Assembly: GCA_030656215.1 (NCBI GenBank)
Contig: JAUSOD010000045.1
Coordinates: 1 to 34,307, forward strand
Length of the DNA: 34,307 bases
From: Azoarcus sp.
GTDB lineage: Bacteria; Pseudomonadota; Gammaproteobacteria; Burkholderiales; Rhodocyclaceae
Reading direction: 5' to 3'
The notes under the pieces are model-generated. The model saw only the letters and a program-made list of their open reading frames with translations. It searched no databases and was not told the origin of the DNA. The translations under genes were made by a program, and so were the position numbers. Positions 23,545 to 34,307 of this stretch are shown piece after piece. How positions within the stretch are numbered: position 1 is the first letter of the stretch; each line of letters starts with the position of its first letter.

Positions 23545-23952
23545 TCAGGCCACCGCGCCCGCCTTGCGCAGATGGGCGGCGAGGGCCGCGTCCATCGTTG
23601 CCAGATGCAGTTCGAACCACTCGGGCAGGCTTTCGCGCACATAGGCGCGCACCAGCAGCAAGCGTCCACGCTGCACCCCGCGGCTGAAAGCGCGCAGTTC
23701 GGCGAGCACCCGCTGGTGCTCGCCGATGTGTTCGCCAATCGCGGGAAAGCGGCTCGCGCGCATGGCCGCGTCCTCGGCGGTGAAATGCGCGCGGCTATGG
23801 TCGAGCAGTTCGCTGAACAGGGCCGGAAATTCCGCATCCCCGGCCGTCGCCAGGCGTGCCGCGAGGCTCACGAAGCTGCGGTGGGTGGCGTCCATCTCCG
23901 CCACCCCGAGTAGGTGGCGGTCGTCATTCCACTGCAGTGCTTCGATCGCCAC
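23545..23952 (-). CDS. Bacteriohemerythrin, nif-linked
   Basis: A 135-aa single-domain hemerythrin beginning at GTG 23952 (VAIEALQWNDDRH). The seven di-iron ligands expected of the family are all present: H24, H56, E60, H75, H79, H116 and D121. It should therefore bind oxygen reversibly at a di-iron centre. It follows the SIR2-like gene with 1 bp between stop and start. Both share a promoter region with sigma-54 and NifA-type sites, so the gene is probably made when nitrogenase is. Oxygen delivery to respiration or scavenging near nitrogenase is the likely purpose; sensing is also possible. Confidence 0.92.
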   Translation of the reverse strand: MAIEALQWNDDRHLLGVAEMDATHRSFVSLAARLATAGDAEFPALFSELLDHSRAHFTAEDAAMRASRFPAIGEHIGEHQRVLAELRAFSRGVQRGRLLLVRAYVRESLPEWFELHLATMDAALAAHLRKAGAVA

Positions 23953-23953
23953 C

Positions 23954-24796
23954 TCAGGCCGCCTCGGCCACCGGCAGGCCGGCCAGCTCGCGCCAGTCGG
24001 CATCGATGACTTCCAGCCCGATGCGGGCGCAGAAGCGCTTCTCCTTGTCGTTTGCACCCGGGATGAGCGCCCAGCCGGCGGGGCTGGCGGCACCGTAGAT
24101 GAAATCGGCCAGCAGCATGCGGATGGTGTCGCGGTTCAGACGCGCGCCGAGCACCACATAGCGTAGCCCCTTGCGCCGCTCCTTGAGGTAGGGGGGGATG
24201 GCGAAGCCGCCCATCAGTTCGGTGATGTAATCGACGAAGTCGGCATCCGACGCAATCCAGTTCGGCTCCGGCCACGGCGTGCCACAGGGCTTGAACAGGA
24301 TGGGTGCAGCAGGATCGATGTCGCCGTCTTCCGCGGCGGTATAGCTGGTGCCATCGTGACGGAACAGCTTGTAGCGCAGGCCGCCGGCAATGCGCGCGAT
24401 ACCGACGATCAGGGTATGCGGGCGATCGGCCCAGGCTTGCTGTAGCCCGGTGTCGCGGTTGAGGTCGATGATGTAGGGCAGCTTCAGCCCGGTGAGCCAC
24501 TGGTGGAGCGCGGCTTCCGACCAGCCGCGGTCGGCGTAGATGCCTTCCAGCGCCCGATTGACGGCAACCCGGCCGCGTTTGAGTTCGATGTTCATCGCCG
24601 CGCGGGGGAACTCGTACATCAGGCGCGGTGACATCGGCTGGCCGTTGTTCAGGGCAAGGATCAGCTCGTCGCTGGTGGCGGGGATCTTGCTGCCGGTCTT
24701 CTTGTTGGTGACATCGGAGAGCGCGTCGGCGCCGATGAAGGGGACTATTTCACCGGCGGCGAGGCCGGCCCGGATCTGGTCTAAGCTTGTCGTCAT
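23954..24796 (-). CDS. SIR2-like domain protein in the nif regulon
   Basis: A 280-aa protein with start at 24796, which has AAGGAA about 6 nt ahead. The N-terminus VPFIGADALSDV (18-29) matches the NAD-binding GAG motif of SIR2-like proteins but reads GAD. IIDLNRDTGLQ (109-119) stands where the family has a T-N-x-D motif. KPCGTPWPEPNWIASDADFVDYI and LRYVVLGARLNRDTIRMLLADFIYG resemble the later HG-like and C-terminal parts. No zinc-binding cysteines of true sirtuins are seen. It may be an NAD-binding or NADase-type protein. It is the first gene of an operon with bacteriohemerythrin, next to draT, which also consumes NAD. The true function is unknown. Confidence 0.8.
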   Translation of the reverse strand: MTTSLDQIRAGLAAGEIVPFIGADALSDVTNKKTGSKIPATSDELILALNNGQPMSPRLMYEFPRAAMNIELKRGRVAVNRALEGIYADRGWSEAALHQWLTGLKLPYIIDLNRDTGLQQAWADRPHTLIVGIARIAGGLRYKLFRHDGTSYTAAEDGDIDPAAPILFKPCGTPWPEPNWIASDADFVDYITELMGGFAIPPYLKERRKGLRYVVLGARLNRDTIRMLLADFIYGAASPAGWALIPGANDKEKRFCARIGLEVIDADWRELAGLPVAEAA

Positions 24797-24874
24797 GAGC
24801 CTTCCTTGTGGTGTTCGGCGGGGGTTCGGAGCGGGTGCCAGGAGCGCGAAATACGCAGCGTCAAGTACACATGT

Positions 24875-24889
24875 GCAAGATCGGTGCCA
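24875..24889 (-). promoter_or_regulatory. Sigma-54 promoter of the SIR2-hemerythrin operon
   Basis: On the minus strand the sequence reads TGGCAC-CGATC-TTGC, an exact match to the -24/-12 consensus TGGCAC-N5-TTGC. It lies about 80 bp before the start codon at 24796 and reads toward it. Two enhancer-type sites lie upstream. Confidence 0.9.
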
Positions 24890-24961
24890 TCGGTGCCGGC
24901 CGCCTGCAATGGCGTATCTGCAGGGATGGTGGCGCGCCCGCGATGAGCGGGGGCTGGCAGG

Positions 24962-24977
24962 TGTCGTGCGCACGACA
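24962..24977. promoter_or_regulatory. NifA-type upstream activator site 1 (SIR2 operon)
   Basis: TGTCGTGCGCACGACA fits TGT-N10-ACA exactly and is also a perfect 16-bp palindrome. Its centre is about 80 bp upstream of the -24 element, the usual distance for a NifA enhancer. Confidence 0.85.
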
Positions 24978-24983
24978 AGCGTG

Positions 24984-24999
24984 TGTCGAGTTTCCGACA
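24984..24999. promoter_or_regulatory. NifA-type upstream activator site 2 (SIR2 operon)
   Basis: TGTCGAGTTTCCGACA fits TGT-N10-ACA, with a TGTCG/CGACA inverted repeat. Its centre lies 22 bp from that of site 1, about two helical turns, so two activator dimers or hexamer contacts could lie on the same DNA face. Confidence 0.8.
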
Positions 25000-25088: not shown

Positions 25089-26024
25089 TCAACATTCCCG
25101 CCGTGCGGCAACCACCCCGCCAATCACGAGGAATTCCTCTTCTCCCTGCAGCAAACCGGGCAGCAGTCCGGTAAAGGCGAGGATCTTCTCGCGCGGGATC
25201 GCACATGACACCACGACATCACCAAACTCGTCCGCGCGCTCGCGGCTGGCGGAGAAGGAGCTGAGGTTGTTCAGTTCGATCAAGTGGCGGCCGTCTTCCA
25301 GCGCCGGGGCGCCGGGCAGGGTGCGTGCGCCCGACAGGCCGCGATAAAGGGTGAGGTGAGGGGTGGACTGACCGGGCGCGTCGCCGTGCCGCGCCAGTTC
25401 GTGCTGCGACCATGCGTAGAGCAGGTCGATCTGCGCCTCGAGTGCGCCGGTGGTGTACAGGCCGGCGCCGGCCTCGCGCTCGAAGGCGATGCGGGAGGCG
25501 GTGCCGCTGTCGCCGACCGGTCCGCGGTGAAAGCGGGTGAGCAGGCCGAAGCGCGATTCCACCCAGGCTTTGAGGATGGCCCCTTCCCGGCTTTCGGCAT
25601 TGAACAGCCAGCCGCGCAGCAGACGCAGGTAGTCCAGCCGGCTGCGATCGATACGGGCGCTCGCCGAGAAGCCGAGCGCGCCCGGATTGTCGAGCTGGAA
25701 ATGCGCGTTCATGTAGGTGCGAAACAGTTGTGCACGCGCTGGCGCCTGGTTGAGCCCCGCCAGCCGGTCGAACAGCGGGCGGTGCAGGGGTAGAACGCCA
25801 TCCAGTTCCAGGGCGCAGGGTGCGAGCTGGAAGGCGAAGCTGGCCAGCGCTTCGGGCGGCAGGTTGGCGCGATTGAGCGGGCGCCGGCCTGCAGCCGGAA
25901 TGGTAAGGCGTGCGAGCCTTGCAGGAATCCCGACGTGAATGTTGTCGGCCCTACAAAATGTAGGGGTTTTGTCGCACAGGGCATCCCCCGAGCTGCCAGG
26001 GGTGTCAGGGGTGTTCTCTTTCAT
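25089..26024 (-). CDS. draT: NAD+-dinitrogenase-reductase ADP-ribosyltransferase DraT
   Basis: Transfers ADP-ribose from NAD+ to an arginine of NifH (R102 here) and so shuts nitrogenase off when ammonium appears or energy falls. The protein is 311 aa. Conserved motifs are NLPPEALASFAFQ, LDGVLPLHRPLFDRL, DYLRLLRGW, AWVESRFGLLTRFHRGP, TGALEAQIDLLYAWSQHELAR, LYRGLSG, LNNLSSFSASRERADEFGD and GLLPGLLQGEEEFLVIGG. The LYRG arginine, the SFS stretch and the later glutamate give the R-S-E type site. The start at 26024 gives an N-terminal extension of about 45 residues; no ATG, GTG or TTG lies between it and the conserved part. The activating hydrolase gene draG is not adjacent. It is divergent from nifH and holds the probable nifH enhancer in its 5' end. 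Confidence 0.93.
   Translation of the reverse strand: MKENTPDTPGSSGDALCDKTPTFCRADNIHVGIPARLARLTIPAAGRRPLNRANLPPEALASFAFQLAPCALELDGVLPLHRPLFDRLAGLNQAPARAQLFRTYMNAHFQLDNPGALGFSASARIDRSRLDYLRLLRGWLFNAESREGAILKAWVESRFGLLTRFHRGPVGDSGTASRIAFEREAGAGLYTTGALEAQIDLLYAWSQHELARHGDAPGQSTPHLTLYRGLSGARTLPGAPALEDGRHLIELNNLSSFSASRERADEFGDVVVSCAIPREKILAFTGLLPGLLQGEEEFLVIGGVVAARREC
25940..25955. promoter_or_regulatory. NifA-type upstream activator site of nifH
   Basis: TGT-TGTCGGCCCT-ACA fits TGT-N10-ACA. It lies about 100 bp upstream of the nifH -24 element and falls inside the draT coding region. It overlaps a perfect palindrome CCCTACA-AAA-TGTAGGG (25949-25965). Confidence 0.75.
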
Positions 26025-26053: not shown

Positions 26054-26068
26054 TGGCACGCTCATTGC
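26054..26068 (+). promoter_or_regulatory. Sigma-54 promoter of nifHDK
   Basis: TGGCAC-GCTCA-TTGC matches the -24/-12 consensus exactly and is followed by AAAAGC. It sits 87 bp before the nifH ATG, giving a leader of about 60 nt. Confidence 0.95.
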
Positions 26069-26134
26069 AAAAGCTTGCTCGTGGTTCAACGCAACACGAT
26101 CGATTCACGAGTCCCAAGTTCCGACAAGGAGTAA

Positions 26135-27046
<912 letters not shown>

Positions 27047-32304: not shown

Positions 32305-32973
32305 ATGTCGTATATCTCCAAACTGCTACGAGTCTGTTATCGCCTCAAGTCCCTCTTTGGCCGCGGTCCCCGATCGAGCCGGATGCCACAGGCACGATCG
32401 CGGCCCCCGTCGTTGGGGGGGGGGAAGTTTGTTCCCGCGCCGGCAATCGATCCCCTGACCGGGCTCGCTTCCCGCCTTGTCCTGGAAGCTCAGATCACGA
32501 AGGCGATCGTCCGCTCGACACGCTTTGGAACAGGCCTTGTCGTTCTTTGGGTGGAGTTGCACGATCTGGAGCGCGCAGTGAAATTGCTCGGCAGGGATGT
32601 GGCCGATGCGGCGCTGATAGTGCTGGCACGACGGTTGCAGGCACTGCTGAAGATGGAAAGTGCGCTTGCCCGGGTGCGGTTTCGTGCCTTTGCCGCGGTG
32701 CATGAAGGGGTGGTGGATGACGACGAACTGGTTCAGACCGTCGCCGCTTTGCACGATGCCTTGGCCTGTCCGTTCGACGTTTGCGAAGGAATGATACATA
32801 TCGCGTCGGGTGTGGGATTCGCGTCTTATCCTGATGATGGGAAGGATGCGTCCACGCTGCTGGCAGCGGCTGCGATGCGTGCTGTCATGCCGCGCAATCG
32901 ACATCCATCGCCACTGCGGTCGCTCGCATCGGCTCAGGTTGAGGCCGGCGCAGCTGCGGCTGATGCGGCTTAG
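32305..32973 (+). CDS. Degenerate GGDEF-domain protein at the end of the nif run
   Basis: A 222-aa protein. After a basic N-terminus of about 45 residues, DPLTGLASRLVLEAQITKAI opens a GGDEF-type fold that continues to GVGFASYPDDGKDASTLLAAAAMRAV. The active-site parts are lost: WVELHDLERAVKLLG replaces the D-x-D-x-F-K-x-x-N-D segment, and FRAFA stands where GGDEF should be. It cannot be a diguanylate cyclase; it may bind nucleotide or protein, or be decaying. A run of ten G at 32415-32424 lies between the N-terminus and the domain. No clear ribosome-binding site precedes the ATG; starts at 32382 (ATG) or 32413 (TTG) are possible. Confidence 0.7.
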   Translation: MSYISKLLRVCYRLKSLFGRGPRSSRMPQARSRPPSLGGGKFVPAPAIDPLTGLASRLVLEAQITKAIVRSTRFGTGLVVLWVELHDLERAVKLLGRDVADAALIVLARRLQALLKMESALARVRFRAFAAVHEGVVDDDELVQTVAALHDALACPFDVCEGMIHIASGVGFASYPDDGKDASTLLAAAAMRAVMPRNRHPSPLRSLASAQVEAGAAAADAA

Positions 32974-33685: not shown

Positions 33686-34307
33686 TCAGCCGGCAGTCGT
33701 GGCACCCAGCGTGGTGGCGCCCGCAGGGCGCAGCAGTCGCGCAAGCCAGCGTTTTGCGTCGCGCCGCGCGCGGTCTTCGGTAAGGCGGCGGCGCAGGGCG
33801 TCGGCGACTTCGGCATAGCTCAGCGTGCGTGCCGGATGGATGGCATCGCAGCGCAGCAGGTGCAGGCCGAGCTCCGAGCGCAGTACGCCGGACAGGCTAC
33901 CGACCGGGAGCGTGAACAAGGCTTCGTCGAGGGCCGGGTAAAGCTGGCCACGCAGTACCTCGCCAAGCTGTCCGCCGTTAAGTGCGGTGGGGCATTCCGA
34001 GTGCTTGATCGCCTGCTCCTCGAAGCGGGCGGGTTTGCTTTCAAGGCGGCGCGCGATCTCGCGGATCCGGTGTTCGGCCCGCTCGGCCGTGTTCTCCGGG
34101 TAGTCCTCGTTTACCGTGATCAGGATGTGACGTGCGCTGCGCTTTTCGGGGCTGTGGAAGCGGTCGAGATGGGTGTAGTAAAAAATCTCGGCCTCGGTGT
34201 CGCCAACTTCTCCGCTCCGTGCGCCGACGCGGTCCATGATCGCCTCGACCAGCAGGTCGCGGTGCAGGGCATCGGCGAGTTGCGATTCGGTGAGCCCGGC
34301 GCGCGCG
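33686..34307 (-). CDS. nifM: NifM, peptidyl-prolyl cis-trans isomerase (5' end cut by window)
   Basis: A parvulin-type prolyl isomerase needed to fold NifH. The reading frame is open to the right edge, so the true start lies outside; an internal ATG at 34237 is not the start, because the upstream codons continue typical NifM sequence (GLTESQLADALHRDLLVEAI). The rotamase domain covers RSARHILITVNEDYPENT to LGLHLLRCDAIHPARTL, with HSECPTALNGGQLGEVLRGQLYPALDEALFTL inside, and a helical tail follows. It is on the opposite strand to nifHDK, probably part of a separate nif transcript. Confidence 0.9.
   Translation of the reverse strand, partial: ARAGLTESQLADALHRDLLVEAIMDRVGARSGEVGDTEAEIFYYTHLDRFHSPEKRSARHILITVNEDYPENTAERAEHRIREIARRLESKPARFEEQAIKHSECPTALNGGQLGEVLRGQLYPALDEALFTLPVGSLSGVLRSELGLHLLRCDAIHPARTLSYAEVADALRRRLTEDRARRDAKRWLARLLRPAGATTLGATTAG

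Follow-up and report, generated by a model that had tools for sequence, protein, structure and literature searches.

A SIR2-like gene and a bacteriohemerythrin gene beside nifH in Azoarcus form a predicted NifA/sigma-54 operon whose SIR2-like product probably assists nitrogenase

In the 34,307-nt stretch of Azoarcus sp. DNA analysed here (contig JAUSOD010000045.1; hereafter the window), a gene for a SIR2-like protein and a gene for a bacteriohemerythrin lie together behind a promoter of the nif type, and we regard their predicted regulation by NifA and sigma-54 as close to certain. The assignment is strongly supported because the sites are conserved in relatives, are specific genome-wide and agree with the published induction or NifA-dependence of likely homologues. 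The enzyme site of the SIR2-like protein looks dead, so that the protein is probably a helper of nitrogenase and not an NAD enzyme or a defence gene. Taken as a whole, the pair is somewhat probably a NifA/sigma-54-switched unit with a nif-specific pseudo-sirtuin that aids nitrogenase maturation or stability.

The promoter and its conservation

The two genes lie downstream of draT on the same strand, and nifH, nifD, nifK and nifT are oriented in the opposite direction, starting at 26141 (Table 1). A gap of 292 bp separates draT from the SIR2-like gene, and the SIR2 stop at 23954 and the hemerythrin GTG at 23952 leave 1 bp between the two genes, as the earlier note had described. That note had also read an exact TGGCAC-N5-TTGC promoter facing the SIR2-like gene and two TGT-N10-ACA sites 22 bp apart upstream of it, and all of these were confirmed, the activator sites at 24962 and 24984 being 22 bp apart from start to start. 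The −24/−12 box begins 93 bp ahead of the ATG, and transcription of the operon is inferred to start at ~24864, which places the centres of the activator sites ~105 and ~127 bp further upstream. NifA-type TGT-N10-ACA sites stand about 80–150 bp upstream of the start; both spacing features of NifA/sigma-54 sites, the GG/GC box at fixed spacing and the activator distance, were found at this operon.

Table 1. Positions of the SIR2-hemerythrin operon, its regulatory sites and the neighbouring genes in the window.
Feature	Position	Strand	Remarks
Bacteriohemerythrin gene, 135 aa, GTG start	23545..23952	-	Pfam Hemerythrin and TIGR02481 over cut-off
SIR2-like gene, 280 aa	23954..24796	-	N113 kept, C171 at the His position
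-24/-12 sigma-54-type promoter TGGCACCGATCTTGC, exact TGGCAC-N5-TTGC	24875..24889	-	conserved in relatives
NifA-type activator site TGTCGTGCGCACGACA, TGT-N10-ACA	24962..24977	-	perfect palindrome
Second NifA-type activator site, TGT-N10-ACA	24984..24999	-	22 bp further upstream, about two helical turns
draT	25089..26024	-	PF07357, 4e-80; upstream of the SIR2-like gene, same strand
nifH promoter	26054-26068	+	exact -24/-12 match
nifH	26141..27046	+	TIGR01287, 471.6 bits; divergent from draT

The exact promoter occurs three times in the window against 0.15 expected (SIR2-like gene, nifH and a GGDEF gene); with up to one mismatch, the six −24/−12 matches against 3.55 expected are not unusual, and TGT-N10-ACA alone is not rare (7 vs. 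3.65 expected). At the level of the genome, a strict module, defined as the exact promoter with an exact TGT-N10-ACA 70–100 bp upstream, was found four times in 5.08 Mb, against none in the reversed control, and the four modules precede nifB, a HesB-like gene followed by nifU, nifH and the SIR2-hemerythrin operon. The third exact −24/−12 match of the window (32624–32638, +) lies inside the 222-aa GGDEF gene downstream of nifHDK; no exact activator site was found in range of it, the nearest one (32159) being ~450 bp upstream, and the match was set aside.

Upstream of draT, a sigma-70-like site was observed at 26071–26044 (−; one found vs. 0.2 expected), which would fit a nitrogen-independent draT as reported for strain BH72 (see below), and draT is probably carried on a transcript separate from that of the SIR2-hemerythrin pair. 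The nifH promoter has its activator site (25940–25955) within the divergent draT gene, in the 5′ portion of the reading frame. Near the far end of the window, an open frame at 33686–34306 (−), cut by the window end, resembles by eye a peptidyl-prolyl isomerase such as NifM.

Conservation was assessed with 80 of the 172 relatives found, which together with the window gave 81 sequences, 79 of them with at least 250 bp upstream (L065 and L074 were too short). A promoter module was scored when a box with at most three mismatches and an intact GG-N10-GC preceded the start codon by no more than 120 bp, with an activator-like site of at most one mismatch upstream of that box. Such a module is kept in 68 of the 79 upstream regions; 30 dinucleotide-shuffled sets yielded 1.03 on average and never more than 3. 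If the activator site must be exact, 24/79 regions remain (0.07 in shuffles), and if promoter and activator site must both be exact, 4/79 (0 in shuffles). Counts of this kind are inflated by shared ancestry, although the sequences span Beta- and Gammaproteobacteria. In many Gallionellaceae-type loci, a TGTCGCATTTGCTCCA-like site stands at a fixed position 60 bp ahead of the −24 box. Eleven of the 79 fail the test (L009, L011, L015–L019, L072, L076, L077 and L083); among them, the promoter box is good in L009 and L011 but the activator site stands further off, and L072 and L077 are one mismatch beyond the promoter cut-off. One check named in the earlier note was whether relatives carrying the same two genes also have these sites, and its proposal of a NifA/sigma-54 operon is borne out by the 68 conserved modules, by the four genome-wide ones and by the published behaviour of likely homologues. 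Given the conservation and the genome-wide specificity, a chance promoter ahead of the SIR2-like gene is very unlikely and was rejected.

Distribution among diazotrophs

The SIR2-like gene is nearly confined to diazotrophs and is not universal among them. Among 121 relatives, 39 carry it, namely 37 of the 40 nifH genomes (three lack it) and two of the 81 others (Fisher p 4e-25), with G005 and G060, in which nifH is split between contigs and falls under the cut-off, counted as nifH genomes. The two carriers without nifH are G101, with draT on the same contig, and G069, whose SIR2 and hemerythrin genes share a 6.3-kb contig on which none of the other nif genes queried is present. The SIR2-bearing contig holds no nifH in 12 of the 39 carriers, and in 24 of the 27 genomes having both genes on one contig they are at most 10 kb apart. 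For 36 of the 38 loci with neither draT nor nifH in view, a search of the genome was possible, and nifH was present in 31. In a phylum-wide draw of 398 genomes, the family was found in 14/39 nifH genomes and 3/359 others (p 4e-13); the remaining 25 of 39 nifH genomes gave no SIR2-family match at E 1e-10, which indicates that the protein is dispensable in many diazotrophs.

As to the neighbourhood, draT lies upstream of the SIR2-like gene in 38/80 loci as far as the flanks reach. Three nifH genomes (G009, G067 and G105), all with SIR2-like genes of the second clade described below, lack draT, and an obligate partnership with DraT was rejected on their account; within the 40 nifH genomes, draT and the SIR2 gene show no association (Fisher p = 1, very few genomes lacking either). 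DraT is not a constant partner of the SIR2-like gene. In the gamma-proteobacterial loci L069 (Ketobacter), L084 (Marinobacterium) and L057 (Pseudomonadales MAG), the homologue adjoins nifH and is directly divergent from it, with one to three TGT-N10-ACA sites upstream. L069 further shows a gene for a Nif11-domain protein after the SIR2-like gene and a nifY-like gene further on. In rhizobia, nifT directly precedes the SIR2 gene in all five records examined, out of 72 matching plasmid records. For the second clade as a whole, nifT stands beside the gene in 8/16 loci, that is, the five rhizobial ones and 3 of the 11 others, whose flanks are ~1.5 kb or less; nifH is present in all eleven of these non-rhizobial genomes.

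The degenerate active site

Pfam SIR2_2 matches the window protein weakly (19.3 bits, under the cut-off of 24.5) and is passed by the L069 homologue (30.6 bits); neither NCBIfam nor PADLOC models matched the window protein. In its AlphaFold (AF2) model (pLDDT 92) the protein is predicted to have a SIR2 fold, the best 50 Foldseek matches being structures of KomC, HAM-SIR2, DSR2, ThsA and AVAST5 (E 4e-9 to 2e-7, KomC and DSR2 about 4e-9; TM-score ~0.6). Searched against PDB sequences, the family profile found no match at E up to 1. The window protein shares its predicted fold with the defence SIR2 proteins DSR2, ThsA, KomC and AVAST5 at a TM-score of ~0.6, but differs from them in the absence of the catalytic pair, in being a single 280-aa domain and in its nif context.

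In the profile alignment with other SIR2_2 proteins, N113 of the window protein falls on the catalytic Asn (N133 in DSR2) and C171 on the catalytic His (H171 in DSR2), a pairing that rests mainly on matching motifs because the E value is only 3e-4. In the window's clade, this Asn and D115 are invariant (81/81), the glycine motif is degenerate, and the His position carries Leu in 52, Cys in 14, Met in 14 and Thr in 1 of the 81 sequences, and His in none. The second clade comprises the five rhizobial sequences plus eleven from relatives among the beta-proteobacteria. All 16 lack the Asn, with Trp (15) or Gly (1) in its place, and 4/16 keep the His; those four (L097–L100), all of them among the five rhizobial sequences, combine His with Trp for Asn, the reverse of the window's clade. 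Hence, the catalytic Asn and His occur together in none of the 97 homologues compared, whereas 8 of 9 comparison SIR2_2 proteins from the same relatives show TTN-x-D and the matching HG motif (L101, in which no TTN motif was found, was left out of the SIR2_2 profile comparison). Fifteen residues are invariant across all 97, and this invariance without the catalytic pair indicates selection on the protein for some property other than catalysis. In a tree of 44 rows (midpoint root, long branches flagged), both nif clades are parted from eight other SIR2_2 rows by a branch with 100/98 support. Profile–profile comparison gave E 1e-35 between the two nif clades, against 3e-4 and 3e-5 to other SIR2_2 proteins; alignment A1 held 67 of the 81 sequences (near-duplicates and the truncated L074 left out) and alignment A2 36 rows. 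The five rhizobial proteins are 24–30% identical to the window protein. Judged by these residues, NADase and deacylase chemistry appears to have been lost across the nif SIR2-like family, whose members would be pseudo-sirtuins.

In DSR2, N133A or H171A lowers NADase activity, and H171A, though inactive, still binds NAD+ (PMC10981675), so that loss of the His may be compatible with NAD binding by the SIR2-like protein. This bears on an alternative in which the protein would bind NAD+ or ADP-ribose uncleaved and signal redox state to nitrogenase or DraT. The invariant N113 and D115, the NAD+ binding retained by DSR2 without an equivalent His, and draT upstream in many loci speak for it; the degenerate glycine motif, the missing Asn throughout the second clade, the SIR2 gene in three nifH genomes without draT, and the Pseudomonas stutzeri strain reported without DraT and DraG (PMC2820453) speak against it. 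For the family's role we consider such a sensor unlikely; the window's clade is where it would most readily apply. The link between NAD state, oxygen and nitrogenase protection, as the earlier note had phrased it, is not supported, the catalytic His being absent and the second clade lacking the Asn.

The adjacent hemerythrin

Hemerythrin is an oxygen-binding type of protein. The window hemerythrin passes TIGR02481 (64.7 bits, cut-off 51.75) and falls under the cut-off of NF033749 for bacteriohemerythrin (60.3 bits vs. 84). Taking the ligands to be five His, one Glu and one Asp, they correspond to H24, H56, E60, H75, H79, H116 and D121, and all seven are present; 62 aligned hemerythrins share them, apart from one row gapped at the first three. 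Downstream sequence of at least 700 bp was available for 77 loci. In 60 of them a hemerythrin gene follows directly on the same strand, at most 900 bp after the SIR2 gene, and 17, including L057, L069 and L084, have no adjacent one. Over all 61 pairs, the start of the second gene lies within −20 to +30 bp of the stop of the first in 51, an exact 4-bp overlap is possible in 35, and the genes are >100 bp apart in seven. No hemerythrin gene was found beside the SIR2-like gene in the five rhizobial records.

These gene ends, which overlap or almost touch in most pairs, together with the intact ligands and a nitrogenase assay of P. stutzeri carried out at 0.5% oxygen (PMC2820453), would suit a reading in which oxygen protection jointly with the hemerythrin is the main task of the SIR2-like protein. 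The 17 loci and five rhizobial records lacking an adjacent hemerythrin gene imply a SIR2-like role that does not depend on such a neighbour, and we give this reading little credence. That an oxygen carrier is made together with nitrogenase, as had been suggested, is plausible. Only some members of the SIR2-like family are accompanied by the hemerythrin, whose task is likely oxygen or iron handling.

Published counterparts

Several genes in the available sections of published reports are likely homologues, with PST1325, azo0536, Rcc03262 and ZMO1821 equated here by names and gene order. In Azoarcus olearius BH72, draT is unresponsive to nitrogen, whereas N2 fixation induces azo0536 and dcrH1, the genes below it; the authors suggest "a potential secondary promoter" below draT, for which the available text gives no sequence (PMC8467165). 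The gene order draT-azo0536-dcrH1, matched by name only, is that of the window, and the conserved promoter found here would fit this suggestion; unlike the window gene, azo0536 is not called SIR2-like in that text (PMC8467165).

In P. stutzeri, PST1325, named a SIR2 family protein (PMC11332353), adjoins nifH, has NifA and RpoN sites and is induced 9.68-fold, and its non-polar mutant shows 23% nitrogenase activity (PMC2820453). It is likened to the window gene by name and gene order, through the nifH neighbour and the NifA/RpoN sites, and the nifH-divergent homologues in L057, L069 and L084 support this equation. There are differences as well: the gene table in the available part of PMC2820453 names no hemerythrin with PST1325, whereas the window gene has one, and beyond the SIR2-like gene the three gamma-proteobacterial loci carry bolA, glutaredoxin, rhodanese-ankyrin and nifQ genes, whereas P. 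stutzeri carries rnf.

Like the window gene, Rcc03262, ZMO1821 and the rhizobial genes encode SIR2-like proteins in nif clusters. Rcc03262 of Rhodobacter capsulatus is a SIR2 family protein encoded in the operon nifB1-rcc03265-nifZT-rcc03262 and was not found in a nifA double mutant (PMC6925177), and in Rhodovulum a SIR2-like gene lies beside nifT and nifX (PMC9412634). Whereas the window gene neighbours draT and nifH, linkage to nifB, nifZ or nifT marks Rcc03262 and the rhizobial genes; the rhizobial proteins carry Trp where the window protein keeps the catalytic Asn, N113. ZMO1821 of Zymomonas lies in a nif island, is induced and is a supposed deacetylase (PMC8594446, PMC8600466).

That supposition, together with the SIR2 fold and the acetylated nif proteins found in Zymomonas (PMC8600466), would favour an active deacetylase or NADase acting on nitrogenase regulators. 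It is opposed by the absence of the catalytic pair from both clades, on which an active NAD enzyme was rejected, by the motifs kept in eight of nine other SIR2_2 proteins, and by the lowered activity of DSR2 N133A or H171A (PMC10981675); we hold it to be highly improbable. The nif-timed defence function raised in the earlier note, taken here as anti-phage, has in its favour that the nearest solved folds among the best 50 Foldseek matches are defence SIR2 proteins, but with the catalytic pair absent, no match to PADLOC models, the phage collection or viral contigs, and a strong nifH association, a SIR2 defence gene was rejected and its probability is negligible.

Discussion

The reading we favour is that NifA and sigma-54 would switch on both genes as one transcription unit, like nifH, nifB and hesB/nifU, and that the SIR2-like protein would serve as an accessory for full nitrogenase activity without NADase or deacylase chemistry. 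An accessory role fits best because the family is confined to diazotrophs and conserved, has lost the catalytic pair in two ways, lies in nif operons or their neighbourhood, and has a published mutant defect in a likely homologue. The most likely step would be nitrogenase maturation or stabilisation, because the gene sits with nifB, nifZ and nifT in rhizobia and R. capsulatus. In many beta-proteobacteria, the downstream bacteriohemerythrin would bind oxygen, or iron, near new nitrogenase. A more elaborate version, in which the dead sirtuin clade, akin in fold to defence NADases, is an assembly or gating factor of nitrogenase and, together with a dedicated beta-proteobacterial hemerythrin, the pseudo-sirtuin reads NAD and the hemerythrin reads O2 where nitrogenase matures, we consider doubtful.

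With regard to novelty, co-induction with nif is already partly published, whereas the family-wide degeneration of the active site in these nif-specific proteins, of which searches of the open-access literature found no description, and a conserved promoter of the kind suspected below draT of BH72 seem to be new. A recurring, uncharacterised nif gene thereby gains a testable identity as a degenerate SIR2 fold which, by its sequence, is not a working deacetylase, contrary to the published supposition for the Zymomonas counterpart. A promoter of this type is what would be needed to explain the nitrogen response of the genes below draT, and not of draT, in Azoarcus. The reduced nitrogenase activity in the mutant of the likely homologue PST1325 indicates that the SIR2-like gene is of importance to nitrogen fixation, which makes it a candidate for inclusion in engineered nif gene sets.
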